From: Planctomycetia bacterium
GTDB taxonomy: Bacteria; Planctomycetota; UBA8108; SXIK01
Reading direction: 5' to 3'
DNA: 41,860 nt
Assembly: GCA_005772855.1 (NCBI GenBank)
Contig: SXIK01000091.1
Coordinates: 1 to 41,860, forward strand
Below the pieces are notes generated by a model. It did no database searches and had not been told where the DNA came from. It was given only the letters and a program-made list of their open reading frames with translations. The translations under genes were made by a program, and so were the position numbers. Shown here one piece after another: positions 1-29,721 of this stretch; positions within the stretch are counted from its first letter, which is position 1; every line of letters starts with the position of its first letter.

Positions 1-859
1 GCTTGTGAAGTGGGTAAAGAAGAATGTCCTTCACTGGCAGTGAGTGCTCGTGTTTTCGATCCAGCTTCCCGCGACCCTGTGTCTGGCCTACCAAGATCCA
101 ATTGGCTGCCCGATAGCAGGTTCCCCGGAAGCGGTCCCGGTCTATGAAGGTTTCCAGCAAAGCTGGCCGGTACCCATAGCGCTCTTGCCAGGCGAGCGGC
201 AGCTCCTGGACCACACCGGCGAGGATTCGCGAAGCCAGATTCCGCGATGTCACCCAGGGGAAGATCAGGAAGCGAGCATTGTTCACAACGAGGTGGAGGT
301 TTCTCCTGCGCTGCTCTAGTGACCAGCCGATGAAGCGATCCCGTGGCGCGATCTTCCAGGCAGCAGATCCGAAGCCCAGAGCGGCCAGGAGGTTCCCGTC
401 GCCGAAAACCAAGTACCGAATTTGGTCTCCCGACAACGGCTTGTAGCCAATATAGTGATGGCGCTCGATGAGCTCATTCCACAGCTTGGAATCTTGTGGT
501 TTCTCCACCCGTTGGAATACCAGATTGCCCAGGCTGCCGGCAGAGCGCGTGACCGGCGCGCGTGGATCGGATGCCGTCGTGAGCGCAGGGCGCGTCCGCC
601 CATTAGCGTTGCGGTTTCGGGGAGGCGGCAGAGAAATGAGGCCATCGCGCTGCATGCGCAGCATGGCTACACGGCAGGACATTTCCTTCAGACGGCCATC
701 GGGACGTAGCCACGACAAACCTTCGCAGGCAAGCTGCGAAAGTCGGACACGGCTCGCCCGTGGCTCTCCGGCGATGAGATCGCGAATCCAGGAGATCTCC
801 TCGCCCGTGAAGTCGCGGCCACAATAGCGGCTGATTTTGGACACCACTTTGGATTTCAT
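1..859 (-). CDS. DUF4338 (DruA-family) protein, C-terminus beyond the window edge
   Basis: An uninterrupted minus-strand frame of 286 codons runs from ATG 859-857 off the left edge. Residues about 122-286 carry the strongly conserved DUF4338 core: WNELIERHHYIGYKPL (127-142), then RYLVFGDGNLLAALGFGSAAWK, then RDRFIGWSLEQRRRNLHLVV (173-192), NNARFLIFPWV, ERYGYRPALLETF, and FRGTCYRAANWILVGQTQGR (244-263). The family includes DruA of the Druantia anti-phage system, but many members sit beside transposase genes, and the biochemical role is not known to me. The N-terminal 120 residues are basic and more variable. The start overlaps the stop of the upstream transposase as ATGA, so translation is probably coupled. 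The frame shows no stop or frameshift, unlike its neighbour. No druB-E genes lie in view, so a complete Druantia locus is not supported. Confidence 0.85.
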   Translation of the reverse strand, partial: MKSKVVSKISRYCGRDFTGEEISWIRDLIAGEPRASRVRLSQLACEGLSWLRPDGRLKEMSCRVAMLRMQRDGLISLPPPRNRNANGRTRPALTTASDPRAPVTRSAGSLGNLVFQRVEKPQDSKLWNELIERHHYIGYKPLSGDQIRYLVFGDGNLLAALGFGSAAWKIAPRDRFIGWSLEQRRRNLHLVVNNARFLIFPWVTSRNLASRILAGVVQELPLAWQERYGYRPALLETFIDRDRFRGTCYRAANWILVGQTQGRGKLDRKHEHSLPVKDILLYPLHK

Positions 860-2563
860 GGCGGCTTATTCTCTTTTGGTGCTCCAGCGCGCTTGGGCTT
901 CAAGGGGTACTGCCAAGCAGCTTTCTGCTCCGCGCTCAAGCTCCACGGCAGGAAGGCGTCGAGATCCTCGGGCGGCTTTCCGCCATTCAGGGCGCAAGCC
1001 TCGAAATAGGCAGTCAAATGCTTTTTCGGGTCGATACCGTTCAAAATCATCGTCTGGAACAGGGTGAAAAGCATGGCCCCGAGCGTGCCGCTCCACACCG
1101 AGCCGCTGCCATGGTAGTTCTTCCTCCCCACCACAGGATTCCGCAGCTGTCGCTCCGAGAGGTTATTGTGCATGGGGATCTCGGGGTGGTCGACGAAAAG
1201 GAACAACCCCGACCAGTGATTCTGAAGACTCTTCAGAGCCTTTCTCGCAGCCTTATGGAGCGCAGGATCAAGGAGCTCGCTTTTGCATGTTTCAAGCAAA
1301 ACGGCGAGAGCCTTTCGTAATTCCTGGTCTTCCTGACGGAACGGCTCCGAGTCCTGGGGAAGCTCGATACGTCGAGCATTTCGCGCGAAAAGATCGTTGA
1401 TTCTCTCCAACCAGCCGTCTGCCCAGGCACGGAGCTTCGGATACTCCTTGTGAATTCGGAAATAATCCTGTCGCACGTGAAACCAGCAGAATGCAATCAA
1501 GAAACGCCCGCTCTCTGCCAGGACCTTGTAGGCGCTGTAGCGGTCGGCGCTGATGATTCCTTCGGCGTTTTCCCCGAGGTGATTCTTCGGGACCTCGGCA
1601 GAGCGAGAGGGGTCCAGGAGAAAAACGCAGGTGTCTTGTGTGATCACTACCCACAGCCACCAACGGTGACCGACTTTTCCCGCCACCTCCACGAAGACCA
1701 GCCACCGTGTCTCATCCATGTGCCAGTGCTTGGCGACGCGACTGCGCTCGAGGATTTTTGTATACAGTGGTTGAAGAAGCTCTCCGAGGCGCTCCAGACC
1801 GCCCGTCAGCGTTCCTTGGGAAACAAAAAGTCCCTCGAGCTCAAGCACTTTGCGGACGCGGTACAGCGGTCGCTGAAAGAGAAACTTCTCAAGTAGAAGC
1901 CGCACCCAGAATTCAATGGAGAACAGCCCTTTGGGGATGAGCTTCGGGGGGCACGGCGTCGTAATAATTCCAGCTTTGCCCTCACATGGGCAGTCCTTGC
2001 GGTAACGCTTTCTTTTCTAGATTCGACGGATCACCCTGAAGATTAGATCAATCTCCTGGGAGTCTTCCGTGCCGAAATCGGCGTAGGGTTTCCCACAACA
2101 AGCACACCGTTTCTCTCCTTCCGGCAGATCAACAATGACCTCTTCGGTTTCGAGCTCGTCGTAAGAGTGGCGACCATGGCCCTTCGCGCCCTTCTTTTTG
2201 CCCCGCTTGCCTTTTTGCTTCGGAGCATTGGAGTCGTCCGGGGAACTCGCGGTGCTGGAATCCGCTTCGGAGCCATCCTCCGCAGCTGAAAGCTCCGGAT
2301 CTGGCGTCGGTTTGCCCTTCTGAGATTTTTGGCCAAACACTTGTAGCTTGAGCCAAAGGACTTGAGCTTTCAGAGCCTCATTACTCTTCGTGCTTCTCCT
2401 TGAGCTGGGCTGCTTGCTCATGAACGGTGGCTTCCAGCGTTTGAGCCAATTCCTTCCAGGCACGCTCTCGCTCGGAAGCACGGGCATGCTGCGCCTGCCA
2501 ATACTTGGCCTCGCAGCGAAGCCCGATCAGCTCGCGTTCGATATCGAGGACGTCCACCACCAT
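856..2563 (-). pseudogene. IS66-family transposase, frameshifted and amber-interrupted
   Basis: Three pieces on the minus strand join into one IS66 TnpC-like transposase. The N-terminal coiled-coil piece (2563-2381) stops after KEKHEE. One extra T (or two lost bases) near 2385 shifts the frame to NEALKAQVLWLKLQVFGQKSQ, followed by the Lys-rich linker and the zf-IS66 CACCGKPY ribbon. That frame meets a TAG at 2019-2017 and then continues in the same frame with KRYRKDCPC..IITTPCPPKLIPKG and the DDE domain down to 856. The catalytic residues are visible: D in HMDETRW, D in ISADRYSAY, E in NNLSERQL. The full length would be about 569 codons. With two disabling lesions a functional transposase is unlikely unless there is recoding. 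The stop overlaps the DUF4338 start as ATGA. Confidence 0.9.
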
Positions 2564-2926: not shown

Positions 2927-3838
2927 TCAAATCCCCAGCCAATTGGCGGTCTTCTCCGGCTTCGGAGATTCGGCGAGCGCCCGCAGCCCCGCCAGCCCAG
3001 CCTCGAGCAATTCGGGCGAGGTGGAAGCTTCCGCATCCAGCACCCAGAGCGAGGAAATCTCCAGAAGAGGCATGGCCCAATCTCGATTCAAGCGGCCTTC
3101 ACCCAGGGGGATCGAGGTGAAGCGGGCACCAAAATCTCTGACCGTCAAGTGCGAACACGAGGCCTTGAGCGGCCAGTCGGCGAGAGGGTTACCTGGCCAG
3201 GATGCCGCGGCCCTGAGCGTGTCGGCCCAAACTGTGAGCGGAGCACCGCGAAACTCACGCAAGAGGTCTTGCATCTCCTTCAGGCTCGGAACCTCGTCGG
3301 GGAAGCCACCAGGGACCATTGCGATCTGCCGTCCGTAACGATCGGCCGATTCCAGAAGTCCCCCAAGGAAACTTTTCAGAGAATCGATCCTGCGGCACGC
3401 TTCATTGGCTCGCCGCTGGAGAATTTGCGCTCGACGATGGTCCACGAACGGCTGATCGGGCTGCAGTGAAAGCCACGCCTCACGCAACGACACCTCCAGC
3501 GCAATGGGGGTGAGGTGAATGACGGGAATCTCTTTTCGTTCGGCCTCGATCACCGTTTCAAGGCCCTGTTGAAGGGCTTGCTTTCGCTCGCCGGCGTCCA
3601 GTGAAGCGGCGTGGAAGGGACAGGGGGCACCGGACGGAAGCGACGAAGGAAACGGCAGGAACAGCTCGATGGAAGCAGCCGCATGCCCTGGTAAAAGCGC
3701 CTTCAAGGGTTCCCACTCAAATTTGCGGAGGGGAGCAGCAACGACGATGGCGTCCAACCCCAGGTCAAGCGCTGTGCGGGCAGTCACTGAAGCATCGAGA
3801 CCTTCCCGGGCCATCGAGAATGCTGCAAACTTTGGCAT
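2927..3838 (-). CDS. Probable TIM-barrel (sugar phosphate isomerase/epimerase-like) protein
   Basis: This 303-residue soluble protein has no signal peptide. It opens with a short strand and a helix (residues 1-30), then alternates hydrophobic strands and helices: DAIVVAAPL, IPVIHLTPIAL, RQIAMVPGGFPDEVPS, GAPLTVWADTLRA. That spacing resembles the xylose-isomerase-like TIM-barrel family (AP endonuclease family 2), including a PS-x-KEM segment where the family usually has a conserved Glu-containing strand. Clear metal ligands are not obvious, so the fold is suggested and the activity unknown. It lies 24 bp downstream of the TPR gene on the same strand. The gap contains TACAAT exactly 7 nt before the ATG and no Shine-Dalgarno sequence, so an internal leaderless transcript is possible. 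Confidence 0.6.
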   Translation of the reverse strand: MPKFAAFSMAREGLDASVTARTALDLGLDAIVVAAPLRKFEWEPLKALLPGHAAASIELFLPFPSSLPSGAPCPFHAASLDAGERKQALQQGLETVIEAERKEIPVIHLTPIALEVSLREAWLSLQPDQPFVDHRRAQILQRRANEACRRIDSLKSFLGGLLESADRYGRQIAMVPGGFPDEVPSLKEMQDLLREFRGAPLTVWADTLRAAASWPGNPLADWPLKASCSHLTVRDFGARFTSIPLGEGRLNRDWAMPLLEISSLWVLDAEASTSPELLEAGLAGLRALAESPKPEKTANWLGI

Positions 3839-3862: not shown

Positions 3863-4906
3863 TCAATTGCTGGCCGGAGTCACCTTGAGCACAGCGAGTA
3901 GCTTTTTTGCACGAGCGACATGTACGGGGTTCTCCCCTTTCTCGACGAAGAGCTTGAAATAGCGCTTCGACTCGTCAAGGGACCGGTTGAGGAAGTGAAT
4001 GTAGCCCAGGTTAAAGTAGACGTCGGCCTTGATCTCCGAGTGCGCCCGGGTGGCGACATGGTGCTCGAGCACCTTTGCAGCCTTGTCGAGCTCCCTGGCC
4101 TTGAGGAGACGATCGCCGAGGGCCCGTTCCACCTCGCCTTGAAATGCAGTGGACTGGTGTGCCTGGATCTGATTCGCGAAAGCCTCGTAAGCACCTCTGA
4201 GGTCTTGTGCCTCGAGGCGCTGCTCGATCGGCGCGGAGTCGACGAATCGCCCGCTCGAGGTTCCCGATCCCTCGGGAAGGGGTGGCATCTTCAGCGCCTC
4301 CTCGTCGACCACGAGGGCATACTCACGATCGGTCTCGACCTCGCTGGTCTTCACGCTCTTCGAGAGGCGGTTATTGACGTCGGATGCTTGAATCTTGGTG
4401 CTCGAATACCGCGGCTGCGTGGTTGGCGGCGCCGTCCTGGCTGGCTTCTCACCCAGGTCCAGCTCCTCAAAAATTCTCTTGCCCGGGGAACCCGGGCCCC
4501 GCTGAGAGAGATAAGCCCACGCGACCACGATGGCAAGAAGCCCCCCGAGTGTCACGAGGATCCAGATGGCGTAGGCACGGATGAAGTCCACGAGGCCATC
4601 GACTAGCGAGCCCGAACCATCGGTCGCAGCCGACGGGGAATCGGCAGGCTCGTTGGGCTTTTTCGTCGCCGCCGCGGCACTTGGTCCTCCCCCGGGGTTC
4701 TGTGACTTGGTCGTTTCTGGCGAGCCCTTTGCAGGCTGAGTGGGCGTTGGCGCTGTCTCCTTCGCTGTCTTGACAGAAATCTTCTTTGCGCCACTTGTGC
4801 TGTTGGTCTGGGCAAGGACCCTTTCGGATATCACTGCCGCAAGGAGGATCCAGCCTAGCGCCGCCGAAAGAATTGCCGCTCTGCCAAAGTGGATGTGGTT
4901 TCGCAT
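3863..4906 (-). CDS. Exported, membrane-anchored TPR protein
   Basis: The 347-residue protein begins with a signal peptide or first membrane segment (hydrophobic 10-30, possible cleavage after VLAQ near 33). A Ser/Thr/Pro/Lys-rich low-complexity linker follows (about 34-100), then a second membrane helix (about 112-133, AIWILVTLGGLLAIVVAWAY). The C-terminal half (about 215-347) is helical, with tetratricopeptide character, clearest in AKVLEHHVATRAHSEIKADVYFNLGYIHFLNRSLDESKRYFKLF. TPR repeats bind protein partners; no enzyme motif is seen. The start is the ATG at 4906. It diverges from the ABC transporter operon across 160 bp and precedes the TIM-barrel gene. The specific role is unknown. Confidence 0.75.
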   Translation of the reverse strand: MRNHIHFGRAAILSAALGWILLAAVISERVLAQTNSTSGAKKISVKTAKETAPTPTQPAKGSPETTKSQNPGGGPSAAAATKKPNEPADSPSAATDGSGSLVDGLVDFIRAYAIWILVTLGGLLAIVVAWAYLSQRGPGSPGKRIFEELDLGEKPARTAPPTTQPRYSSTKIQASDVNNRLSKSVKTSEVETDREYALVVDEEALKMPPLPEGSGTSSGRFVDSAPIEQRLEAQDLRGAYEAFANQIQAHQSTAFQGEVERALGDRLLKARELDKAAKVLEHHVATRAHSEIKADVYFNLGYIHFLNRSLDESKRYFKLFVEKGENPVHVARAKKLLAVLKVTPASN

Positions 4907-5031: not shown

Positions 5032-5060
5032 TTCACAATCGCTGGTCCACGGGATATGAT
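5032..5060 (+). promoter_or_regulatory. Sigma70-type promoter of the ABC/PDZ/VCBS operon
   Basis: TTCACA (5032-5037), a 17-nt spacer and TATGAT (5055-5060) match the consensus at 5 of 6 positions in each hexamer. The -10 element ends 7 nt before ATG 5068, so the transcript would start at or next to the start codon. The upstream ATG at 5056 lies inside the -10 hexamer and is therefore unlikely to be the start. Confidence 0.65.
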
Positions 5061-5067
5061 TCCCGCC

Positions 5068-6042
5068 ATGATAGGCGATGCCCTCACGCTGCGGGGAGTA
5101 ACCCACCGTTTCCGCGACATCAAGGTGCTCCAAGGGGTGGATCTATCCGTTGGAGAGGGCGAGATTTATGGTTTTCTGGGCCTCAACGGGGCCGGGAAAA
5201 CCACAACGATCCGCATCATTGTCGGTTTGCTCCGGCTTCAGGCTGGAGAGGTGCGGATCCTCGGCTCCGATGTTCGTTCGACACCTATTGAGGTTTACAG
5301 GAATGTTGGGGTGCTCTTCGAGGACTTCGCTGCTCACCCCTACCTCACTGGTCGACAACAGGTGTTGCTCCACGCCCGTTTCCTGGGATTGCCGCCAGCC
5401 GCCGCCCGCAGATCCGCTGACCGCTGGCTCGAGCGAGTCGGCCTCGCCTCAAAAGCCTCCTCGAAGGTGAAGGACTACTCTCTCGGTATGCGCCGCCGCC
5501 TGGGACTGGCCTGCTCCCTGGTCGCGTCGCCTCGGATCGTCATCCTGGATGAGCCCACCAATGGCCTGGATCCCCAGGGCATCGCAGACCTCAGAGGATA
5601 TCTCCAGAGCTTGAGCCTCAACGAAGGCCTGACGATCTTTCTTTCAAGCCATATCCTGGGTGAGGTCGAACAGCTTTGCACCCGGGTTGGAATCCTCCAC
5701 CACGGACGGATTCAGGTCGAGGGTGCAGTGAAAGATCTCACCGGCCGCGGTGTGCCGAAACATCGAGTGCGAGCCGTGCCCATGTCAAAGGCGAAGAAAG
5801 TGCTCGAAGCCGCAGGTGGCCAGGGAACCGTCAAGGTTGAACTCGCGGATGATTCGCTTGTGGCCGAGTTGACGCCCCAGGACGTGCCCCGACGTGTGCG
5901 TGAGCTCCTGGCGGCCGGAGTTGAGCTCTACGAAGTCTCGCCTCGTATCGAGAGTCTCGAGAGCGTTTTCCACCGCATGGTGAGCGTCGAAGAGAACACG
6001 AGCCCGGACCACCCGCCGGAGCAGAGTGCCCATTGCCAGTAA
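5068..6042 (+). CDS. ABC transporter ATP-binding protein (ABC-2 type)
   Basis: This 324-residue cytoplasmic ATPase energises the permease encoded next to it. Motifs in order: Walker A GLNGAGKT (38-45), a Q-loop position occupied by Glu (VLFED, about 85), a degenerate signature YSLGMRRRLGL (137-147), Walker B IVILDEPT (157-164) with catalytic Glu162, D-loop GLDP and switch His195 in LSSH. Residues about 235-324 form an extra C-terminal domain typical of drug- or polymer-exporting ABC-2 ATPases. ATG 5068 is preferred over ATG 5056 because the latter falls within the -10 box; the mRNA is probably leaderless. The 3' end overlaps the permease start by 10 bp. The substrate is unknown. Confidence 0.92.
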   Translation: MIGDALTLRGVTHRFRDIKVLQGVDLSVGEGEIYGFLGLNGAGKTTTIRIIVGLLRLQAGEVRILGSDVRSTPIEVYRNVGVLFEDFAAHPYLTGRQQVLLHARFLGLPPAAARRSADRWLERVGLASKASSKVKDYSLGMRRRLGLACSLVASPRIVILDEPTNGLDPQGIADLRGYLQSLSLNEGLTIFLSSHILGEVEQLCTRVGILHHGRIQVEGAVKDLTGRGVPKHRVRAVPMSKAKKVLEAAGGQGTVKVELADDSLVAELTPQDVPRRVRELLAAGVELYEVSPRIESLESVFHRMVSVEENTSPDHPPEQSAHCQ

Positions 6043-6881
6043 TCTCGCCTCGCCGCCTGGCTCGATTGACATGGCTTGAGATCTGCAAGTTGCGGCGCCA
6101 GCGCCTCTCGCTCTTCGTGCTGGGCTTGCCGGCCGTGGTGTCGGCGTCGGTGCCCCAGGGGTTCTGGCTCGCGTCCGCCGAGGGCCTGCAGGGCTTTCTG
6201 GCCTTTTCGACTGCGCTCAATCTGGCACTTCTGCTGGGCTGCTTCCTGCTACTTATTCACGCCTCCGCCTCGATCGCCTGGGAGCGAAGCGAGAAGACCC
6301 TGAGGAATTATCTGACCGGTCCAGTGAAGCGGAGCGAGGTCTTTCTTTCACGGTTTGTTGCTCTCGAGCTCGAGATGTTGCTTCTCCTCAGCCTCGTCGT
6401 GGTCGCGGCACACCTCTCGACCAACTCCCACTTCGCTTTTGAGGATATTCGAGGCGAGGCGATCGAGCCCCTCTTCCTCGCCGAGGACATCACGCCACAC
6501 CTCTGGCTTGCGATCGCCTACTTCGTGCCGGCCGCGGCGGCACTGGTGAGCGTGGGCTTGTTGGTCTCGGTGATTTGCGCAACACCAGCCGTGGCCACTG
6601 CCCTGGCCCTGAGCTTGCTCCTGTGCCTTGACATCGCCAAGTCGGTCTTTTCGGGACGGTCGAACTGGGTCTCCTGTCTGTTCAGCAGCTATCTGCCCAC
6701 GCTGTTCGACCGCACCTCGTACCTCTTTGGCGTCCAGGGGATGTCGGAAGGGAAGAGCGACGCACTCTGGCCCGATAGCTCGCCGCACCATTGGTTTGTC
6801 TGGATCGTGCCCGCAGCCACGCTTCTTGTCTCCGTCACCGGGTCACTCGCGATCTTTGTCAGGAGGGACTACGCGGAATGA
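6033..6881 (+). CDS. ABC-2 type transporter permease
   Basis: The 282-residue integral membrane protein has about six hydrophobic helices. They begin around 25-48, 55-85, 108-130, 155-185, 188-205 and 253-275, and the protein closes with the VRRDYAE tail common to ABC-2 permeases. A cytoplasmic N-terminal amphipathic stretch (RLARLTWLEICKLRRQR) precedes the first helix, as usual in this family. The start appears to be TTG at 6033, because no ATG or GTG exists upstream in frame before the homologous N-terminus; a GGAG lies 11 nt before it. It overlaps the ATPase gene by 10 bp and the next gene as ATGA. It should form the membrane channel with the ATPase. Confidence 0.88.
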   Translation: MPVISPRRLARLTWLEICKLRRQRLSLFVLGLPAVVSASVPQGFWLASAEGLQGFLAFSTALNLALLLGCFLLLIHASASIAWERSEKTLRNYLTGPVKRSEVFLSRFVALELEMLLLLSLVVVAAHLSTNSHFAFEDIRGEAIEPLFLAEDITPHLWLAIAYFVPAAAALVSVGLLVSVICATPAVATALALSLLLCLDIAKSVFSGRSNWVSCLFSSYLPTLFDRTSYLFGVQGMSEGKSDALWPDSSPHHWFVWIVPAATLLVSVTGSLAIFVRRDYAE

Positions 6882-7756
6882 TCGTCACGTTTTCGCTTTG
6901 TGCGCTCCTTCTCGAGTCTTCGACTGTGCCCGAGGCTCAAGTCCCGAGCTTCTTCGGCGTACACACCCAGGCACCGGCCTTTGAGGACGAGGGACTCGCG
7001 GACCCAGATCTCGCACCCGGTGTAGCCGTCATAGTGGTTGTAGAGAACTCACCGGCGGCCGTGGCGGGACTCAAAGTTGGCGATCGCCTCCTCGCCGTCA
7101 ACGGTGAAAGCCCGCGCACACCGCAACACCTCGAGGCCTTCGTGGCATCCCGGCCCGTCGGTACCCGACTGAACGTGAGGCTGCGGCGAGGAGTCGAGCT
7201 GATCGATGTTGAGGCCACGACGGTGGGGCGGCTCGAGCCCAGGGCTGCGCCGGATGTCAGGTATTTCATCGAGGGGGTGAAGCTCGGTCTTGCCCTCGTC
7301 ACGCTCAGCGAGGAGGAGTCGCGGGCCGCCGGTGTCGGCCCGGGTGACGGCGTCCGTGTCCGCAGGCTGCTCGAGGGCAGCCCGGCCAAGGGACGCCTCG
7401 TTCCGGGCGACGTGATCATCTGTGTTGACGGGAAGCAAGTGCACGGAGGTGACGACTACTTGGCCATCTCGCGGTCGATCGAACGCGGCAAGGAGGCACG
7501 GTTCAGGATCGTCCGCCAGGCGCAGCCGCTCGACGTGACCGTGTGCGCTCGAGCTCCCGAACGCTATCTCACCCGGCTTCATTTTCCCCTCGTTGTCATC
7601 TACCAGAACGATCGGAAAAAAGACGAGACGACCCTCGGCTTGGTACTGAACATCTTCAAGTACACCCGCGAGGAGCACCGAAGGACTTACCGGCTATTGT
7701 GGATCTTCAGCATCACGACCGGCACCAACGAGGAGCTCGAGGAGGTCCAGGAGTGA
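6878..7756 (+). CDS. Exported protein with two PDZ domains
   Basis: This 292-residue protein has a short N-terminal hydrophobic signal (1-20). Two PDZ domains follow: the first about 45-110 (VIVVVENSPAAVAGLKVGDRLLAVNG), the second about 130-220 (VRRLLEGSPAKGRLVPGDVIICVDG). Both have the GD-x-[IL]-x-x-[IV]-[ND]-G carboxylate-binding loop. No protease domain is attached, so it is not a DegP/HtrA enzyme; it more likely binds C-terminal tails in the periplasm. The last 60 residues (LHFPLVVIYQND..TTLGLVLNIFKY..YRLLWIF) are rich in beta-strand-like segments and not assigned. The start overlaps the permease stop as ATGA and has a good AGGAGG site at 6861-6866. The end overlaps the next gene as GTGA. 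Confidence 0.82.
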   Translation: MIVTFSLCALLLESSTVPEAQVPSFFGVHTQAPAFEDEGLADPDLAPGVAVIVVVENSPAAVAGLKVGDRLLAVNGESPRTPQHLEAFVASRPVGTRLNVRLRRGVELIDVEATTVGRLEPRAAPDVRYFIEGVKLGLALVTLSEEESRAAGVGPGDGVRVRRLLEGSPAKGRLVPGDVIICVDGKQVHGGDDYLAISRSIERGKEARFRIVRQAQPLDVTVCARAPERYLTRLHFPLVVIYQNDRKKDETTLGLVLNIFKYTREEHRRTYRLLWIFSITTGTNEELEEVQE

Positions 7757-9270
7757 TTTTTCTCCTCAAGCGCCCGGGTGGGGGACGGGTGGCTTTGCCC
7801 CTGCGGCTCGGCGCTCTGCTCGCTCTTGCCGCCGCGCTCTGCTGCGCGGATGACTTGAATGTTGAAGGCGAACTGGCATCCTTCGTGGCCCGGGACCAGG
7901 ACAAGGATGGCTTGACTGAGCTCTGGGTAGCCTATTTCAACTCGGGGCAACGGTTCCTTGGGCTCTTTCGGGGCCAGAAGACCTACTCGAAGGGTCCTGA
8001 TCGAGTTCTTCCCATCGACGAGCAGGCCATCCTTTATTCGCTCGGCGACTACGACTCGGCGCCGGGTCTGGACCTCCTGCTCCTGTCGCGTTCACACGGT
8101 GTGCTCTGTCCGCTCTCGCCCGGCGACGCGGGCGGCGGCTACAGAAAGGTGGTCGACACCGATCTCTTCTTCACTGTCCCGAGTCGTCGTTTGGCACCTC
8201 AGTGGCTCTCAAAAGACCGCCTCGATATCGATCAGGATGGCGTCGACGACCTCGTCCTCCCGGAGCGCACTCGTCTTCGAATTCTCCTTGGCGCTCCAAA
8301 AAAAGAGGGCGCCAACGCTTCGGGCAGCCTGTGGCGGTCCACGGTCGATTTGCCGGTAATTTACTATCCCCTTTACGACTCCCGGGAGGAGAGGGTCTCG
8401 AAGGTGATTGAGGACTTTGCGGAGGAGGACAAGAGCCCGCTGCCGATTTACGACGGCGCAAGCGCCTACCCGTACCCCGTTTTCCGTGACTTCGACGGCG
8501 ACGGACAACTCGACCTTGTCTTGAAGCTCCCGGGCCCGCGGCTCGAGGTCTTTCGACAGACCCAGCCGGGCGTGTTCTCCCAGTCGCCCGACCTGAGGTT
8601 GGAGATCCGCTGGACGAAGGATTCGAGCGGGCTTGACTGGACTGACTTGAACGGTGATCGCAAGCTCGACCTTGTCTCAACCGAGCTGCTCCTCAAGGAC
8701 CTTACCACCGAGGTGAAAGTCTTCATCCAGGATGACTCCAGGGCTGACCATGGCTTTGTGGAGCCTCGCCAGGCTCTGCGCGTGGAGGGCTTCTTTCGAA
8801 GGCCCGTGCTGGCCGACGTGAACGGGGACGCCCGGCTGGACCTTTGCGTTTCGCCCTATCGGGTAGACCTTCTCGAGAAACTCAACCAGCGTGTCGTGGA
8901 GGAAATGGAGCTGTCGCACAAGGTGTTTCTTGGAACTCGCGAGACTCCCTTCGAGCGAAGACCCTCGTTTCAGGAGCGCTTCCTCGTGAAGACACAGGAG
9001 CTCGATAGCACCAGCGCGAGGCCGCCCATCCTCGCGGGGCACGACTTGACGGGGGACGGCCGAGCGGACCTCCTTCTGGTCGATGGCGGGCGATCGCTTC
9101 GGCTCTATCGATCGGTATCGGAGCGTCCGCTCAAATTCGAGGAGGTCAAGGCCTTCGCAAACAAGGTGGGCGACCCCATCGACGTGGAAGCGTTGAGCCT
9201 CGACAACGAGCCCGGCGAGGAGATCGTGCTGCGATTCGAACGACGGCTCCAGATCCTCAGGGCCAGGTAA
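7753..9270 (+). CDS. Exported FG-GAP/VCBS-repeat beta-propeller protein (first of pair)
   Basis: This 505-residue protein starts with GTG overlapping the previous stop (GTGA) and carries a signal peptide (about 1-32, LGALLALAAALCCA). At least six calcium-binding-loop blades of the VCBS/FG-GAP type are visible: RDQDKDGLTEL, DIDQDGVDDL, RDFDGDGQLDL, TDLNGDRKLDL, ADVNGDARLDL and HDLTGDGRADL. The spacing suggests a seven-bladed propeller like integrin alpha N-termini. Such proteins act outside the cytoplasm in adhesion or ligand binding, and no enzyme motif is seen. It is translationally coupled to the ABC/PDZ genes and followed 7 bp later by a second protein of the same design, so the two may form a complex served by the transporter. 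Confidence 0.85.
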   Translation: MIFLLKRPGGGRVALPLRLGALLALAAALCCADDLNVEGELASFVARDQDKDGLTELWVAYFNSGQRFLGLFRGQKTYSKGPDRVLPIDEQAILYSLGDYDSAPGLDLLLLSRSHGVLCPLSPGDAGGGYRKVVDTDLFFTVPSRRLAPQWLSKDRLDIDQDGVDDLVLPERTRLRILLGAPKKEGANASGSLWRSTVDLPVIYYPLYDSREERVSKVIEDFAEEDKSPLPIYDGASAYPYPVFRDFDGDGQLDLVLKLPGPRLEVFRQTQPGVFSQSPDLRLEIRWTKDSSGLDWTDLNGDRKLDLVSTELLLKDLTTEVKVFIQDDSRADHGFVEPRQALRVEGFFRRPVLADVNGDARLDLCVSPYRVDLLEKLNQRVVEEMELSHKVFLGTRETPFERRPSFQERFLVKTQELDSTSARPPILAGHDLTGDGRADLLLVDGGRSLRLYRSVSERPLKFEEVKAFANKVGDPIDVEALSLDNEPGEEIVLRFERRLQILRAR

Positions 9271-9277
9271 AATCGCC

Positions 9278-10945
9278 ATGAGATGGAAACCTCTGCTTCT
9301 TGTGGCTCTTCTCGCCCGCTGGCCCGAACACCTTCGAGCCGAGTCCGGAGCCTACACGGTCCAGACGTTGGAGGTCGGGCATCAAGCGCTCCACCTCCAC
9401 TGGGGACCGCGGGGAAAGGAGGGGCGCGGGGGCCTCTTCGCCTTGACGCGAAGCTCTGTTCGCACCTGGGAGCAAACCTCGCTGGGATTCTCCAGCCAAC
9501 TCAGCGAGGAGATCCCACTTCCTCGCGAACCGAGCCTCGTCGATTTCGCCGACATGTGCGGCGACGGTGCCGAAGAGGTCGTGCTCCTGAATCGAAAGGG
9601 CCTCTTCGTTGAGACTCGCGCGCTGCGCCCCGGGGATCCGCGTGCCGCAGACGGGGTCGATGGAGCCTTTACGCGAGTCTTGCCTCTCATTGGAGTCCCC
9701 GTTGGGCTCGAGCATGCGCCGGCCGCATTCCTGAAGGACGTGACGGGCGACGGTCTCGTCGACCTGGTGGCTCCCGTGCGCGCCGGCTACGAAGTTTATC
9801 GCCGGGTGGGAGAGAAGCTCGTGAAGCTCGTGAGCCTTCAAGGGGAACACCGTGTGACGGTCGACTCGGGCGGACCAAGCCTCCTCGACCCCCTACGATT
9901 TGAGCTCAATATCCCCCAACTCAAGTTCAAGGACCTCAACGGCGATGGCCTGCTCGATATCGTCTCCCGCTTGAAGGAAAAAACTCGCTGCTATCTGCAA
10001 GGGCCTCAGGGCTTCTCGGCTCAGCCGACCTACGAGCTCGACCTGGCCCGTTTCCGTGAAGGAGTCGGCGCCACCGCGGGCGAGGGGGCCAAGGGCGCGG
10101 GCAAGAAACCTCGCAAGAGCGGCCTTTCGTTGGGTGGAGGAATCAAGGTGCACGAGGTCGACATGGACTCGGACGGCGTCCAGGACTACTTGATCGCCGC
10201 CGGTCAATATTTGCGGGTTTACTTCGGCTCGAGGGCAACCACTGATTTTTCCCGTCCGCACACCCTCTTGAAGCTCTCGAGTGAGCTTCAGGGCGTGGGT
10301 AGCTTCGATATCGACGGAGATGGCCGATTGGACCTGGTGGCGATCAAGTTCGAGCTTCCGAGCCTGCCCAGGCTCATCGCGGCCTACTTCGTCTCCATGA
10401 GCCTCGACTTCGAGGTCCTGGGCTACAGGAATGAAGGGGGCCGCAAGTTCTCCCGGCGGCCTGACTGGCGCAATGCGCTGGCCCTCAAGCTGCCTCCCCT
10501 GCGAGAGGTGATCGAGGGCTTCGATGCCTTCGCTGAAAGGTTCCTCAGCGCCACTTCCCGCCGGGGTCGCTTTGCCGCGGGAGACTTGAACACCGACGGG
10601 CAGCCCGACGCTGTTTTCCTCGACACGGATCACGTGCTGAGGGCCTATTTCGGCCGCCCGGGCGAGCCGCCGCCAGGTAACGTGCGCCTCGGGAGCCTAC
10701 TTTTTGACACAAGGAAGAGCGACTGGGAGCTTCAGGAGCTGCTCAATTTCGTGGCCAATGCAAGCCTTGAGCAGGCTCGCCGCACGGTCGAGGGCCGCAC
10801 CGCCGGTCTCGCGATCCGCCTGGGCGAGGACTACGACCCGGGGGACGTGAGGGTCCGCGTTCTCGACCTTGACGCAGACCGAAGGGGCGACATCGTGATC
10901 GACTGTGGTAACGGCAAGGTCAAAGTGGCCCTGTCGGGGCTGTGA
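9278..10945 (+). CDS. Exported FG-GAP/VCBS-repeat beta-propeller protein (second of pair)
   Basis: The 555-residue protein has an N-terminal signal (1-21, LLLVALLARWPEHLRA). Seven or so Asp-rich calcium loops follow: ADMCGDGAEEV, KDVTGDGLVDL, KDLNGDGLLDI, VDMDSDGVQDY, FDIDGDGRLDL, GDLNTDGQPDA and LDLDADRRGDI. A Gly/Lys-rich insertion (about 265-285, EGAKGAGKKPRKSG) separates two halves. The architecture parallels the preceding gene but the sequences differ, so this is an old duplication or convergent design. It is the last gene of the operon starting at 5068; the next gene downstream has its own promoter. Function is not known; extracellular or periplasmic binding is inferred. Confidence 0.85.
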   Translation: MRWKPLLLVALLARWPEHLRAESGAYTVQTLEVGHQALHLHWGPRGKEGRGGLFALTRSSVRTWEQTSLGFSSQLSEEIPLPREPSLVDFADMCGDGAEEVVLLNRKGLFVETRALRPGDPRAADGVDGAFTRVLPLIGVPVGLEHAPAAFLKDVTGDGLVDLVAPVRAGYEVYRRVGEKLVKLVSLQGEHRVTVDSGGPSLLDPLRFELNIPQLKFKDLNGDGLLDIVSRLKEKTRCYLQGPQGFSAQPTYELDLARFREGVGATAGEGAKGAGKKPRKSGLSLGGGIKVHEVDMDSDGVQDYLIAAGQYLRVYFGSRATTDFSRPHTLLKLSSELQGVGSFDIDGDGRLDLVAIKFELPSLPRLIAAYFVSMSLDFEVLGYRNEGGRKFSRRPDWRNALALKLPPLREVIEGFDAFAERFLSATSRRGRFAAGDLNTDGQPDAVFLDTDHVLRAYFGRPGEPPPGNVRLGSLLFDTRKSDWELQELLNFVANASLEQARRTVEGRTAGLAIRLGEDYDPGDVRVRVLDLDADRRGDIVIDCGNGKVKVALSGL

Positions 10946-10982: not shown

Positions 10983-11010
10983 TTGACAGGACTGGGCGAG
11001 TCGATAGAAT
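10983..11010 (+). promoter_or_regulatory. Sigma70-type promoter, perfect -35 box
   Basis: TTGACA (10983-10988, full consensus), a 16-nt spacer and TAGAAT (11005-11010, 5 of 6) lie immediately before the small gene at 11022. The predicted start of transcription, about 11017, leaves a leader of only about 5 nt. Confidence 0.65.
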
Positions 11011-11021: not shown

Positions 11022-11291
11022 ATGGACGAGAAGAACCCATCGCCAATCCCTTCAGCGGGGACTCAAACCGTCGAACCCAATCCCGTGGTGGTTACCTCCA
11101 TGGATTTGAAGCTCAAACCGGGTACGCGGATCCAGCTCGGATTACGCAAGGGCCTTGTCGATCAGGTACGAGGCAGCTGGAAAAAACCCTATGATGTCCG
11201 CGTCCTCTGGGACGATGAGAAGTACCCGGTCTTCGTGACCCACAGAGGGCTCGAGCTCGAGTTCGCGAAGGGACGCCTCAAGGTTCTGTAA
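11022..11291 (+). CDS. Small conserved-looking hypothetical protein (89 aa)
   Basis: An 89-residue soluble protein with no signal peptide. The first 25 residues are Pro/Ser-rich. The rest (MDLKLKPGTRIQLGLRKG..VRVLWDDEKYPVFVTHRGLELEFAKGRLKVL) alternates short beta-strands and charged loops, suggesting a compact beta-barrel or SH3-like fold. I do not recognise the family. ATG 11022 sits 11 nt after a strong -10 box and lacks a Shine-Dalgarno sequence, so it is nearly leaderless; an internal ATG at 11100 is the alternative. It is monocistronic, with a minus-strand operon converging from the right. Confidence 0.6.
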   Translation: MDEKNPSPIPSAGTQTVEPNPVVVTSMDLKLKPGTRIQLGLRKGLVDQVRGSWKKPYDVRVLWDDEKYPVFVTHRGLELEFAKGRLKVL

Positions 11292-15477: not shown

Positions 15478-18429
15478 TCACATCTCGCAGCTCAGTGTGT
15501 CGTCGGTGGGATCAATGCCCTCAAGGACGGGGCCCGGTGGCCGGGGAGGGGTTCCTCCTGCAAAGAGAAACATTAGCGCCCCCACGGGGTCCGCGAGATT
15601 GATGGTGCCGTTGTCGTCGACATCGGCCGCGTCCTCGCACCCAAGCTTGCCAAAGCCCAGGTAAAGATATCCAAGCGTCATGACAACATCGGATATGTCG
15701 ACTTCACCATCCGAGTTGACATCTCCCCTTCGAAACCGTGGCACACTCTTGAAGACAAGCATCTCGGGCTCGAGAGACGCAAGGAATGTGCTGGTGCCAG
15801 GCGGCGTCACTTCCAGCACGCCGTGACGAGCGCCGTTGCGGGCAAAGAGCTCAAGCCCGGGGTCGTCGTCTACCTGTGCCGGGGTGAGGACGTCGTCTAC
15901 ATCCAGGAACCAGTCACCTACCTGGCCTTCAATCCTCGCGTACGCACGAAAGCCGCCTTCCTCGAATCGAGCGAGCAGGAGGCTGTTTGCGTACTGAACA
16001 AGCACGCCGTCAGCCTCACCTCCCAGAAAGCGACCCGGGATGATGACCTGGCCACGTTGGAGCTCCCAGGTAGGTCGCATTCCAGGCAAGTACCGATCCG
16101 TAATGCCCAGGATCCTCAGCTTTCGCTCGCTACGCTCCCAGCCGAGGGTAACCCAGGACTGGCCATTCGAAATCAGGATCTCCTCGCCGCCGCCAGCGAT
16201 AAACTGTCCGCCAAAAAAACTCTCCGTGGTTCCGTCCCTGGCCAGTGTCCACTCGCCTTGGTTCAAGGTGCCGCTGGCAATCCACACAAGTTGGGCTTCG
16301 CCGCCGCCGTCCCAGGCAACAACCCCCATGCGCCCACGCCCTCTCAAAACGAGCTCTTCGATGCCGTCGCCGTCCAGATCGACCGTGTGAAGGCAATCTC
16401 CGGAGGAGAATTCCCAGCCGGATGCGACCCCAGCCGAAGCTGGAATCGTTCCATCGACTGTCAAGCGGCTTACCTTGGGCCCATCCCTTGAGGGAAAGAC
16501 CTCGGTCAAGGAGCGCGCGCTCACAATGAGAAAGCTTTCAAGTCCACCCTGAAGCCTTCGGCCGCGACGAAGAGAGGGAACCTCCGCATGGGTCCACGCA
16601 CGGAGAGAGCCTCCGGCACTCCACCGCGTCACCATGCGCGAGCTCGGACCGTTTGCCTCCTCCGCGGGACCGGCTGACGAGATCAGGCTCACGTCGTTCT
16701 CGCCCATTACGGCGAGATCACTGCGAGCAGCGTCAAAGAACGGAAGGGAGAGAAATCGGTCAGCTGCACCTATCTTCCACGAGGCTCCACCGACCACGCC
16801 GGGTTGAATCTGGGAAGTTTCGTACCACAGCGCCCTCGGGCTACCATCACTCATGTCGAAGACGCAGACTTCCTCACCCTGGTGGCAGAAGATGAGATCG
16901 CGAGCAACCCCAAGGAAGTCTCCCGTGAGGATCGCCACACCGGGAGCGAAACGAAAGCGTCCCGGTGGCAACGCGCCGGCTTCCTTCGGCTCAGGAATCA
17001 CGAGCTGACGCTTGTCGTTCACGAAGGCACAGCGGACGAGTGAGCCACGGGCGAAAAGCAGGTCGGAGCGGCCGTCTCCGTTGAATTCGCCCACGATTCG
17101 CCGAACACCCTCGCCCCCAACACAGCTCCAGCCACAGCCCCGGTAAGCACGCAGGCCGATCCCGTCGAACCCAACCGTCTCGAGCTTTCCCCAGTCGTCG
17201 TGGTCGTTAAACTCCACCTCGTCGAGCTTGCCATTTGCGTTCAGATCCTCGGAGACGAAGGCCGTCGTCAGCACTCCGTCCTTGTTCCAGTCCACGTTGT
17301 CACTGAATGCGCCTACCGACAGCCGCCTCAGCTCGCCACAGGCGAGAATGTGCTCGTTCGGCACCTTTCCCATGCCGACGGGCTCGAGGAGCCTATCCTC
17401 TCGCAGACGGGCCTGGATGGTCCCGTGCGAAAAATCCATGACAGGCAATCCGTTCAAGAAATCGACTCCGCAGAACTGGAACCGGTAATTCATTACGCTT
17501 GGATAGTTCGGCTTCCAGTTCGTGTTGTCCCAGCTGCCATCCTGGGTGGAGCCGCCATGCCCGAGCCCGAAGGCATGGCCCAGCTCATGGAGCAACGTTG
17601 CGGAGCGTTGATACCGCAGAAGATCCTCGGAGATGTCGGGGAAAGGCTTTCGGAAGAGCACCGAGATCTGGACACCGGAGCTCACGAGGCCATCCCGCTT
17701 CGCGAGGTCATCCGAGAAGCTCTCGGAGTAGGGGTGATTGCGATCGCCTTCAAGAGGCCCCCCGGCGTCCGGGGATTGGGCCAGCTCGGCAATCAGAACA
17801 TAGTAGAAAATATTGCGACGCGAAGGCCGGAAGAATCTTCCGCCGTTGTAAACTTCGTACAGGGACAGGTGCGTCGAGGCGCCCCGCTCGCCGCAGGCAG
17901 GTCTCGAGGGGAAGCTATCCTGGTAAGGCAGCGTCTTCTCCTCGTCTGGCTCGTTCACAAAGGCGGTGAAATCAACATCGGGCTCGAGGAGGGATTCCGG
18001 AATGAGGTTCTGGATCCCCGGTCCCAAGTCGAAGTGAATCTCAATATTTCCTCCCGCCTTCCGGAATGCCCGAGTTATGTCAACAGCAGACTGATAGGCT
18101 ATCACGGCACTGGGCTGAGCTGAGCCGTCCTGCGTGAGCATCCAGTCCATCTCGACAAAAACGTCCTTCCTGTTCGGGTTTGCGCCATATACAGGCAAGG
18201 GCTCAAAGCCTGATCCCGAAGAGTATCCCTTGACTTCCCAGCCGTCGAGCAATCCGTCACCGTCGGAGTCCGGGTTGCTGATCTGGGTGCCATGAGCAAC
18301 CTCTTCCTCGTTGCTCAACCCGTCACCGTCGGAGTCAAGGGCTGGATCTTGTGCCCAGGCACCCACGGAGACAACACCAGTTAGAAACCCAACGAGTGAG
18401 AATCTGCCCACTCTTGAGGTATACAGCAT
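15478..18429 (-). CDS. Secreted metzincin-like protease with TSP3-type and dockerin-type calcium repeats
   Basis: This 983-residue exported protein has a signal peptide (1-26, VSVGAWA). Two Asp-rich thrombospondin-3-like calcium loops follow (DSDGDGLSNEEE 32-43; DSDGDGLLDGWE 54-65). A zinc protease domain carries HELGHAFGLGH (281-291), matching HExxHxxGxxH with Glu282 catalytic and three His ligands, and a Met-turn SVMNY (311-315). Calcium-loop segments continue (NVDWNKDG, EDLNANGKLDE), then a long FG-GAP-like propeller (about 430-890). The last 80 residues are a dockerin-type pair (RGDVNSDGEVDISDVV and ADVDDNGTINLADPVG) with a Pro-rich tail. It probably degrades or processes extracellular proteins; the C-terminal module may dock or sort it. 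The promoter lies at 18476-18504. Confidence 0.85.
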   Translation of the reverse strand: MLYTSRVGRFSLVGFLTGVVSVGAWAQDPALDSDGDGLSNEEEVAHGTQISNPDSDGDGLLDGWEVKGYSSGSGFEPLPVYGANPNRKDVFVEMDWMLTQDGSAQPSAVIAYQSAVDITRAFRKAGGNIEIHFDLGPGIQNLIPESLLEPDVDFTAFVNEPDEEKTLPYQDSFPSRPACGERGASTHLSLYEVYNGGRFFRPSRRNIFYYVLIAELAQSPDAGGPLEGDRNHPYSESFSDDLAKRDGLVSSGVQISVLFRKPFPDISEDLLRYQRSATLLHELGHAFGLGHGGSTQDGSWDNTNWKPNYPSVMNYRFQFCGVDFLNGLPVMDFSHGTIQARLREDRLLEPVGMGKVPNEHILACGELRRLSVGAFSDNVDWNKDGVLTTAFVSEDLNANGKLDEVEFNDHDDWGKLETVGFDGIGLRAYRGCGWSCVGGEGVRRIVGEFNGDGRSDLLFARGSLVRCAFVNDKRQLVIPEPKEAGALPPGRFRFAPGVAILTGDFLGVARDLIFCHQGEEVCVFDMSDGSPRALWYETSQIQPGVVGGASWKIGAADRFLSLPFFDAARSDLAVMGENDVSLISSAGPAEEANGPSSRMVTRWSAGGSLRAWTHAEVPSLRRGRRLQGGLESFLIVSARSLTEVFPSRDGPKVSRLTVDGTIPASAGVASGWEFSSGDCLHTVDLDGDGIEELVLRGRGRMGVVAWDGGGEAQLVWIASGTLNQGEWTLARDGTTESFFGGQFIAGGGEEILISNGQSWVTLGWERSERKLRILGITDRYLPGMRPTWELQRGQVIIPGRFLGGEADGVLVQYANSLLLARFEEGGFRAYARIEGQVGDWFLDVDDVLTPAQVDDDPGLELFARNGARHGVLEVTPPGTSTFLASLEPEMLVFKSVPRFRRGDVNSDGEVDISDVVMTLGYLYLGFGKLGCEDAADVDDNGTINLADPVGALMFLFAGGTPPRPPGPVLEGIDPTDDTLSCEM

Positions 18430-24568: not shown

Positions 24569-25108
24569 CGCGGCTCTACATAGCCCGGCACGATTCGGAG
24601 TGGCGTCTCGCCGGTTCTCCTCCGCGCTGGCTTTGTCTCTTGTCCTCTGCGATCCTTCCAGGATCGCGGTCGGCCTTCGCTTCGCGCCATCGCGGAAAAC
24701 TCCGAGGCGAATGCTGAACACTCGGAATCGCGCCGGACTATTTAGAAGACCAACCTGAGAAGCGCCCACCCAAAATTGTGATCTCAACTCCCCGGCGCAG
24801 CGCGCTCCCCTCTTCCGAGTTGCAAGATTTCTCCTTTTCCTACGAAAGCCGTGCGTCACCGCCATCACGAAAAGGCGTTTCGTTAACCGCGAGAGAGAAC
24901 ATCTTGAACTTCGTGCGGACTGCGCTAACCTGTTCCCTTGCCTGACACTTTCTGATCGTTCTGTCTTCTACGCGCAAACCAATAAAACATAACGCATGGA
25001 CTGATTGCCGTTTCCTCCTGGCTTTGAGGCATCTATTGATGCCTGTCACTGTTGCTGTAGTGGTAGCAACAGTGTTTCCGAGGCTTGCTACCGTACTGGT
25101 GGTTAGTT
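24569..25108. other. dnaA upstream region
   Basis: About 540 bases with no supported gene. It contains an 8-bp hairpin (24649-24656 / 24660-24667, loop TCC) after the LOG gene, an AT-richer stretch around 24980-25000, and three hairpin-forming repeats at 25027-25092 just before dnaA. No DnaA box with fewer than two mismatches was found here. Promoter hexamers are weak. Confidence 0.5.
25027..25092 (+). repeat. Cluster of inverted repeats before dnaA, two of them mutually exclusive
   Basis: Hairpin A pairs AGGCATC (25027-25033) with GATGCCT (25038-25044). Hairpin B pairs CACTGTTGCT (25047-25056) with AGCAACAGTG (25065-25074), ten perfect base pairs. An alternative hairpin C pairs GGTAGCAA (25062-25069) with TTGCTACC (25085-25092); its left arm overlaps the loop and right arm of B, so B and C cannot form together. 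The cluster ends 16 nt before the dnaA ATG. Confidence 0.6.
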
Positions 25109-26605
25109 ATGGTCGCACACGTTCCAGAACACAGATCGCTGTCAGAATACAGCGATCCGCCCACGAGCCTCCTTGAGTACATCCGTGCCCGATTAACTCC
25201 TCACGAGTTCACGACTTGGTTTGAGCACACCCCGCTCCACTTCTTCCATCCTGATCGTTTCGTCCTGACGCTAAGAAATCGTTTCCGAAAGAACTGGGTA
25301 GAAAAAAATTACCGTAACCTCATTGTTACTTCAGCCAGAGACTTGTTTCAAACCGAAGTTCGACTCGCCTTCGAGATAGATTCAGGTCCGCCTGTTGATC
25401 ACCACGAAGGCGCGGATTCACAGAACCTTCCTCGCTCGCTGCCTCCGACAGCGGACAAGCCGCCTGGTGTTACTCAGACCAACCAGCGCGAACCCTCACG
25501 CCATTCCGCGTCCTGTGAAACCAGTCTCACGTCTCCACACGGCGTTTCCCAATATCATCAAACGTCCAGCAGCCTTCACCGCGACTACCGTTTTGATACA
25601 CTTGTCCTGGGCTCCACCAATAGCGTAGCCCACGCTGCCACTGCTGCAGTGTGCTCCCAACCTTCTAAATGCTACAATCCGCTTCTTCTTTACGGTGAAA
25701 CTGGTCTGGGAAAAACCCACATCGCACATGCTATTTGCCACCACTTCCTTGAGACGCGCACCAAGCGAGTTAGTTACATTTCTGCACACGAATTTATTGA
25801 TTTTTATATGACTGTAACTACTTCTCAAGACTCAAGACACTTTCGCTACTACTTTTCGGACACTGACGTTTTAGTCATTGACGACGTTCACTATCTAGCC
25901 GCTCGGGACGGGGGTCAAGAAGACTTTCTTCGATTCTTTACTGAGTTCGTGGAAGCAGGAAAACAACTTGTATTTACCAGCCGAAAGACTGAGGATAATT
26001 CCAATATAGCCCCCCTTCGCCTCACCTCCCGTTTCAGATCAGGTCTCATGGCCCGAATCGAGCCACATGACTTTGAGATGCAGGTCTCGATCCTGCTGCG
26101 AAAAGCTCGGCTCCGCAATGTAGAATTCTCCATGGAGGTCGCAGAGTTTATAGCAAGATCTGCTTTGACTGGAAGTCGACACTTGGAAGGGGCGCTTCTT
26201 GCAGTGATCCACTTCGCAAATGCTCGACAGAGACCCATTGACCTGAACCTCGCGAAGGCTGCGCTGCTTGAGGCGTTGCCCAGCCCAGCCCAAAGCTCCA
26301 CAGTGACCGTGAATAGAATATTGCGAGCAGTTCAAGATTTTTACCAATTGCGTTCTCAGGACCTTCTTTCGCGGTCAAAAGTTCGTGCAGTGGTTCTCCC
26401 CCGACATGTGGGGATGTTTCTTGCGCGCCAACTTACCCAACTCTCCTTGGTACAAATTGGTTCGATCTTTGGCGGACGCGACCACACGACAGTTCTTTAC
26501 GCACAAGACCGTGTGGAGACATTGCTTCGATCTAATCCTCAGATTAGAAAAGACTTACAGATTATTCGCGATCGCATTTCGGACTCTCAACGTCCTGCCC
26601 TCTGA
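25109..26605 (+). CDS. dnaA: Chromosomal replication initiator DnaA
   Basis: The 498-residue protein has all four DnaA domains. Domain I (about 17-90) carries LLEYIRARLTPHEFTTWF. A long polar linker spans about 91-158. The AAA+ domain III has Walker A GETGLGKT (196-203), Walker B VLVIDDVH (254-261) and a Box VII-like RLTSRFRSGL with the arginine finger. The DNA-binding domain IV has LPRHVGMFLARQLTQLSLVQIGSIFGGRDHTTV, close to the family signature. It opens origin DNA in its ATP form and loads the helicase with DciA. ATG 25109 is preferred over an upstream in-frame start at 25085 because homology begins after it; the ribosome site (GGTGG) is weak. Base composition is visibly AT-richer than in the genes to the left. 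Confidence 0.97.
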   Translation: MVAHVPEHRSLSEYSDPPTSLLEYIRARLTPHEFTTWFEHTPLHFFHPDRFVLTLRNRFRKNWVEKNYRNLIVTSARDLFQTEVRLAFEIDSGPPVDHHEGADSQNLPRSLPPTADKPPGVTQTNQREPSRHSASCETSLTSPHGVSQYHQTSSSLHRDYRFDTLVLGSTNSVAHAATAAVCSQPSKCYNPLLLYGETGLGKTHIAHAICHHFLETRTKRVSYISAHEFIDFYMTVTTSQDSRHFRYYFSDTDVLVIDDVHYLAARDGGQEDFLRFFTEFVEAGKQLVFTSRKTEDNSNIAPLRLTSRFRSGLMARIEPHDFEMQVSILLRKARLRNVEFSMEVAEFIARSALTGSRHLEGALLAVIHFANARQRPIDLNLAKAALLEALPSPAQSSTVTVNRILRAVQDFYQLRSQDLLSRSKVRAVVLPRHVGMFLARQLTQLSLVQIGSIFGGRDHTTVLYAQDRVETLLRSNPQIRKDLQIIRDRISDSQRPAL

Positions 26606-27373
26606 GTCAAGCTTTCACGCCTTGTGAAACTCGCCTGAAGTCCCACCCCCAGCGGGTGACAAGTGCACCCTTGAGAGACCCGCCTCGCCTATTTTTGCTT
26701 CTGTGGGGTCTCATTGACCTGGTCTTCTAACCCCTCTTTCCAGGCCAAGGCGCGCCCGGAACTTTCGTCGATGCCTGACATGGATTGTGGGATTTGTCCA
26801 GCTTGGCTTCCTGAATCGACCCATCTCTCCACACGCCGAGTCACATCGAAACCCAACTACAACCAAGAACCACCCAGAGCCTGAAAGCCCAAGTCGGCGT
26901 TGCAACTAACACTCAAGAAAGCAGTTACAATTTAATTATCCATCAAATCTAACATTTTGCCAGACCCCTCATCATCAGTAGTACTCTTCAATACCTCTCT
27001 TACTTTGAAAAAACCAATGACGACCCCCCAGGAAGACAGGAAGCTGTTTCAGTTCCGTCCCTGGTTCTCTTCGACTTTTTGACTGTCGAAATAAAACAAC
27101 GCCACGACTGACCATGGAAAACTCCCCCGCCGTCCTTGCCGCAAGTGTCAGGAGGCGCCTGGCAGCCTCTTGAACAAGCCCCCGCGGGAGCCACCCTGCC
27201 CTTATGCCCACATGCAAGCGCCCCAAGGAGGGAGGGAGACCGGAAGGGCATGCCTGGGCAACCATTTGCTGAGCCCACCCCGAGGTCGAGCGACGCCGCG
27301 CCGCGAAGCATTTCGGCCTGGTCCTCGTCCTTCGGGTTCGGGCGGCGGGCCGCTTCTGGCGCTGCCTGGACTT

Positions 27374-27496
27374 CGGCGGTCGCCCCAAGACCGCCGTGGT
27401 CCTTCGCGCCTTGCATTCGTCTCCGCGGCCTTGCAACTCTGCCGCGGAGACTTGTTCAGCAGGATGCTATACGATCCCCTGCACCACTGGGTGCAG
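27374..27496. repeat. Tandem perfect hairpins in the candidate origin
   Basis: Three perfect stem-loops follow one another: CGGCGGTC / GACCGCCG (27374-27381 / 27389-27396, 8 bp, loop 7), GTCTCCGCGGC / GCCGCGGAGAC (27419-27429 / 27441-27451, 11 bp, loop 11) and CTGCACC / GGTGCAG (27479-27485 / 27490-27496, 7 bp, loop 4). They lie in a GC-rich island flanked by AT-rich DNA. They could be a structured RNA or an origin architecture element; I do not match them to RNase P RNA, tmRNA, SRP RNA or 6S RNA. Confidence 0.6.
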
Positions 27497-27599
27497 TCAC
27501 CTGTCCGCAGGATTCGCTGGAGCACACGCAGTGGGTTGCTCCCGACTTCAAAGGCTCATCGGACCAACTTTTCCCTGTAATTCAAGACCTGGAAACGCA

Positions 27600-27840: not shown

Positions 27841-27872
27841 TGAAACACCCTTGGGCTCACAAAGGGCGGCGG

Positions 27873-28220: not shown

Positions 28221-28235
28221 GGCTATCGACTCTCG

Positions 28236-28478: not shown

Positions 28479-28595
28479 TGCGGCTGGAAACTCTTGGATT
28501 TTTGTTTTCACGTGTCGGCAGAAGCCGTATGTATTTTGCGACTCCAATCCAAAGAGAAAAGGCGCTTCAGGCTCAACACCTGTAAGAAACGATCC

Positions 28596-29708: not shown

Positions 29709-29721
29709 CGAGTCAGACCAA

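Follow-up and report, generated by a model that had tools for sequence, protein, structure and literature searches.

What would an ABC ATPase and an ABC-2 permease do when they are encoded together with an exported double-PDZ protein and two calcium-loop beta-propellers? Such a set of five genes lies in the window, i.e. the whole stretch of 41,860 nucleotides that was analysed, which is one entire contig (C63) of a planctomycete draft genome of 5.03 Mb (244 contigs, 96% complete). The original prediction had described the set as a single operon encoding an exported assembly, and the analysis presented here supports this description.

Five ORFs on the plus strand fill positions 5056–10945. The first (5056–6042, with its start at either 5056 or 5068) encodes an ABC ATPase of the NosF/DrrA type with conserved motifs (Pfam ABC_tran, 1.4e-28). 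It is followed by a gene with a TTG start (6033–6881) for a NosY-like ABC-2 permease with six predicted transmembrane (TM) helices, which was recognized by both Pfam ABC2_membrane_2 (3.7e-10) and a profile match to NosY. The third gene (6878–7756) encodes an exported double-PDZ protein of the HtrA type without a protease domain (PDZ_6, 7.8e-20, two stretches). Its conserved, strand-rich C-terminal module (approximately residues 231–292; positions 7568–7753) was delimited from an alignment of 35 loci. Propeller 1 (VC1; 7753–9270) has a GTG start, a signal peptide and six DxDxDG-type calcium loops (FG-GAP_3, 5.9e-20), and its paralogue, propeller 2 (VC2; 9278–10945), also has six calcium loops (FG-GAP_3, 4.1e-21). 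All five gene identities originally assigned were thus borne out, since Pfam backs every named domain. The same is true of the tight gene junctions, which comprise a 10-bp overlap, the overlaps ATGA (6878–6881) and GTGA (7753–7756), and a 7-bp gap (9271–9277) before the propeller 2 gene.

A promoter-like site on the plus strand, TTCACA-17-TATGAT (5032–5060), overlaps the first possible ATG of the ATPase gene. It had been called a strong promoter; it is only a fair consensus match, of 10/12, and modestly above chance, with 0.7 +/- 0.9 such sites expected in the region. In G001, a genome from another genus of the window's family, the 'CGGGATATGAT' of this site likewise precedes the ATPase gene, as a comparison of upstream sequences showed. 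Propeller 2 is probably the last gene of the operon, because an 11/12 promoter match at 10983–11010 would serve the ORF directly past it (11022–11291, plus strand), which encodes 89 amino acids without a family match.

Several other genes of the window were also noted. A divergent membrane/TPR gene (3863–4906, minus strand) and a gene for a family-less protein (2927–3838, minus strand) adjoin the operon here, in G001 and in G002, a genome from another family of the same order, and are not found there in the other families. The TPR gene was rejected as a part of the system, as it is present in three genomes of the window's order and absent from the phylum-wide loci. Pieces of an IS66 transposase, split into two ORFs, occupy 856–2487 (minus strand) near the contig end. 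Downstream of the operon, a Gfo/Idh gene is present in both the window's genome and G001; in the latter, a CRTAC1-like FG-GAP gene (L025, 4046–5761, minus strand) that is missing from the window is located between the operon and this gene. A large TSP3-repeat protein with a weak dockerin-like C-terminus and a weak match to the propeller 2 HMM is encoded at 15478–18429 (minus strand). The genes dnaA, dnaN, gyrB and gyrA lie consecutively at 25085–35522 (plus strand), approximately 14 kb downstream of the operon, which is therefore near the likely chromosome origin of this genome.

The original prediction had proposed a search for the same gene order in other Planctomycetota as its check, and this order was indeed found phylum-wide; the lack of synteny beyond this strain that it had named as refuting does not hold. 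Single-sequence searches of the family, order and class had returned only the copies in G001 and G002; G003, likewise a genome of this order, lacks the set. G002 (locus L026) has the complete order ATPase–permease–PDZ–VC1–VC2, and in G001 the operon is cut by contig ends with both halves in place (L024, L025). In these two genomes, identity to the window is 60 and 43% for VC2; the corresponding values are 52 and 38% (VC1) and 56 and 33% (permease). A narrow-pattern scan of genome contigs gave, among the matches listed, the G002 record and one weak stretch from Microbulbifer. The notion of a genus-level oddity, suggested by the family, order and class searches, was overturned by a profile search of the phylum, after which 59 neighbourhoods were fetched, HMMs were built for the five proteins and the gene order was read. 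Thirty-five loci, the window and L026 included, contain PDZ–VC1–VC2 in order and are referred to as the PDZ type. Of these, 31 loci, from 15 Planctomycetota families at least, hold the complete five-gene set with order and strand unchanged, which is far beyond chance. The PDZ gene of this type is always located between the permease and propeller genes.

The propellers are often only 20–28% identical across loci; therefore, the gene order has been kept over a long divergence. The VC1 profile matches 221 of 392 sampled phylum genomes, many of them at full length. Matches to the VC2 profile are clearly bimodal: 64 of the 392 genomes, or about one sixth of those sampled, score below 1e-76 and hold the five-gene PDZ type with a true second propeller, and 40 more fall between 1e-20 and 1e-63. 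No non-operon gene recurred beside the PDZ-type loci in an all-against-all comparison of flanking ORFs; thus, the five genes form a self-contained module. Plasmid-borne spread was also considered and rejected, as no match to propeller 1 was found in 72,556 plasmids. In one locus (L068, 1402–12966, minus strand), a second ATPase–permease pair precedes the operon, which is followed by two additional propeller genes.

Parts of the set also occur in other arrangements. A sister type without the PDZ gene, ATPase–permease–VC–VC, is found in the loci of family f63 and also in L076, L098, L099, L101, L102 and L111. Related propellers without ABC genes are found in L071, L079, L084, L109 and L110, and the stand-alone propellers of one family keep their own unrelated flanks, including a protein-kinase-like gene. 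Four of the 35 PDZ–VC1–VC2 loci lack detected ABC genes. Two of these (L081 and L082) are at contig ends, and the other two (L105 and L114, from one genus of family f70) show none next to the set, although L105 has several kilobases of upstream sequence. The solitary propellers and the f70 loci are what would be expected if the five genes were merely co-transcribed neighbours, inherited together and acting separately. This explanation is nonetheless very improbable, as the order has survived very long divergence while both flanks changed, and two different natural fusions join adjacent genes.

The first of these fusions unites the ATPase and the permease in one stop-free frame in 17 loci, with short and variable linkers. 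The fused forms from these 17 genomes constitute a single clade in a phylogeny built from both proteins (SH-aLRT 100). The second unites the permease and propeller 1 in one polypeptide in two genera of f63 (L070, and L074 at a contig edge), both of the PDZ-less type. At this joint, a hydrophobic segment stands where the signal peptide of the propeller would be, and it would form a seventh TM helix. The C-terminus of a six-TM ABC-2 permease is inside the cell; with one extra helix, the fused propeller would therefore be outside. Together, the two natural fusions suggest that the gene products belong to one physical complex. The permease–propeller fusion fits propeller 1 as a subunit and not as cargo, and is taken as the best evidence on this question. 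Because the fused f63 loci are PDZ-less, we infer the same status for propeller 1 of the PDZ type by homology.

Within the ABC pair, the permease points to a relationship with the Nos system. Walker A, signature, Walker B and H-loop motifs of the ATPase are conserved in an alignment of 40 homologues, the comparison with the NosF type being drawn from these motifs. The best NCBIfam matches of the ATPase are DrrA and lantibiotic exporters, and it scores 4.9e-49 against TIGR03864, which is below the cut-off of that model. In PADLOC, the ATPase matched nothing but generic ABC/AAA models, and a role in anti-phage defence was rejected. The permease alignment has six hydropathy peaks, and the permease family profile matches NosY (7o0y) over its full length (E 2.6e-6, positions 6–287 of 289). 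NosY is the only convincing solved relative of the permease, the next true transporter being PmtD at 0.012. For this reason, a NosDFY-like, ATP-driven machine is the favoured interpretation. NosDFY, which contains the ABC protein NosF, is a complex for copper-site maturation in the periplasm (PMC11573801; PMC7558416).

The counterpart of the NosD subunit was looked for in the window's genome. No match to the NosD beta-helix (PF05048) was detected in the whole 96%-complete genome, while 6 of 14 control genomes were positive. NosD, a beta-helix protein, is the defining periplasmic partner in NosDFY, and the client of the complex is nitrous oxide reductase. Neither nosZ nor nosL is a recurrent neighbour of PDZ-type loci, and the neighbours in the window are TPR, Gfo/Idh and other genes. 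The operon is therefore not a member of NosDFY, since both NosD and a nos context were sought and were absent.

The DrrA and lantibiotic exporter matches, together with the weak likeness of the permease to PmtD, also suit a conventional ABC-2 exporter of a small molecule, lipid or peptide, in which the three exported proteins would receive, stabilize or present the cargo at the surface. In that case, C-terminal peptides could be ligands of the PDZ protein, as they are of the PDZ domains of HtrA. Such an exporter is considered unlikely, if well short of negligible: no gene for biosynthesis or for a precursor peptide is found repeatedly next to the 35 PDZ-type loci, genes for membrane-fusion proteins and outer-membrane channels are absent from the operon and do not recur in these flanks, and a propeller fused to the permease is easier to reconcile with a fixed subunit than with a receiver.

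The propellers are defined by their calcium loops. The six DxDxDG-type loops in each of the window propellers compare with means of 5.4 and 5.3 per protein over the 35 loci, and with 0.10 and 0.15 in shuffled propeller sequences. The Asp residues of these loops are the most conserved propeller columns. Propeller 2 shares a 31% local match with propeller 1 of G001, and the propeller 1 profile matches CRTAC1 (9etn) weakly (E 9.6e-5). An AF2 model of propeller 1 from a two-row alignment had a pLDDT of 38.6, too low to show a closed 7- or 8-bladed fold. N-terminal hydrophobic stretches corresponding to signal peptides are present in 33/35 loci for propeller 1 and in 29/35 for propeller 2. The original suggestion that a propeller is delivered by the transporter was thus not supported, and the propellers were rejected as its cargo on account of their own signal peptides and of the fusion of propeller 1 to the permease in two genera.

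Ligand binding or adhesion is a frequent role of FG-GAP/VCBS propellers. The conservation of the Asp residues in their calcium loops would also be compatible with a sensor or adhesion complex, in which the propellers bind a polymer or surface ligand while the ABC pair signals inward or drives a response, as in FtsEX or BceAB. This is judged improbable, as the flanks of PDZ-type operons contain no recurring gene for a sensor kinase, a response regulator or a hydrolase.

The PDZ protein resembles the HtrA family in its PDZ domains only. It matches NCBIfam degP_htrA_DO in two stretches (6.1e-18), and its AF2 model (pLDDT 63) has the PDZ parts of DegQ/DegP and the PDZ tandem of RseP as its nearest folds in Foldseek. 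A trypsin-like protease domain is absent; only PDZ models match, and the protein begins approximately 45 residues before PDZ1. Low-confidence beta strands were predicted in the C-terminal module at residues 238–245, 250–259 and 274–282, and the module ends in a G-x-x-x-x-L-type motif in most of the 35 aligned loci. A structural role for such a protein has a precedent in PflC, a protease-dead HtrA relative that is a periplasmic scaffold in the Campylobacter flagellar motor (PMC12222027). The PDZ domains had been proposed to recognize the C-terminal tails of the propellers. This reading was abandoned because the tails have no conserved or hydrophobic end in the 35 loci (a hydrophobic last residue occurs in 3/35 tails of propeller 1 and 3/35 of propeller 2, and 21/35 propeller 1 tails end in Arg), and because a PDZ-less type exists.

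The preferred reading is given about an even chance: the five genes would specify a single machine of the cell envelope, with a NosFY-like ABC-2 motor at its base. In this model, the ATPase would join the NosY-like permease in a dimeric unit that sits in the membrane and hydrolyses ATP. On the periplasmic side, the permease would carry the two calcium-stabilized propellers, with propeller 1 in direct contact, and the protease-less double-PDZ protein would serve there as an adaptor or scaffold. ATP hydrolysis inside the cell would move the permease and thereby move or open a platform in the periplasm that consists of both propellers and the PDZ adaptor. In this way the platform would act on a client, which it may load, fold, assemble or release in the manner of NosDFY with nitrous oxide reductase; the propellers themselves would not be pumped out. 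Counted against such a machine are the occurrence of the permease–propeller fusion in the PDZ-less type, the PDZ–VC1–VC2 loci without ABC genes (L105 and L114), the solitary propellers and the absence of NosD. The fuller proposal, of a hitherto undescribed class of ATP-driven envelope machine, widespread among Planctomycetota, in which a NosFY-type motor, paired paralogous calcium propellers and a PDZ adaptor act mechanically on a periplasmic or surface client, is put forward tentatively, at slightly less than an even chance.

To our knowledge, there are few ABC systems in which ATP powers work outside the membrane instead of transport. If correct, the proposed machine would extend a NosDFY-like principle to new partners, and the fusions hint at how the parts touch. 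It would also assign a conserved function to proteins whose present annotation is no more than 'VCBS repeat' or 'PDZ domain', and the motor would work in bacteria whose cell envelope is itself unusual.

The original prediction had known of no described system with this combination of genes. A literature search likewise found no description, subscription papers aside, which is not proof that none exists. The operon resembles NosDFY in that an ABC ATPase and a NosY-type permease are encoded with an exported repeat-fold partner, but differs in having two propellers and a PDZ protein and no NosD-type protein. MacB and FtsEX use ATP without cargo passing the membrane domain, and MacB and FtsX share the type VII fold. 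The proposed transfer of energy to periplasmic parts is similar, whereas the permease of the operon is of the ABC-2/NosY type. The likeness to the ABC systems associated with PQQ-dependent alcohol dehydrogenases (TIGR03864) lies in the sub-threshold ATPase score and in a beta-propeller gene that such clusters also hold; the propellers of the operon are of another type, and no PQQ genes were seen beside the operon. Like HtrA/DegP and PflC, the operon includes an exported protein with tandem HtrA-type PDZ domains, but this protein is without any protease domain and has a C-terminal strand-rich module of its own. Similarly, the DxDxDG loops in blade repeats are shared with the FG-GAP propellers of CRTAC1 and integrin alpha, but those of the operon belong to two paralogous families of full length, each with inserts of its own, and the operon has an ABC motor and no ASPIC/UnbV domain. 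Judged by sequence, and in a combination for which no description was found, the operon would, component by component, be a NosFY-type ABC motor with new partners.
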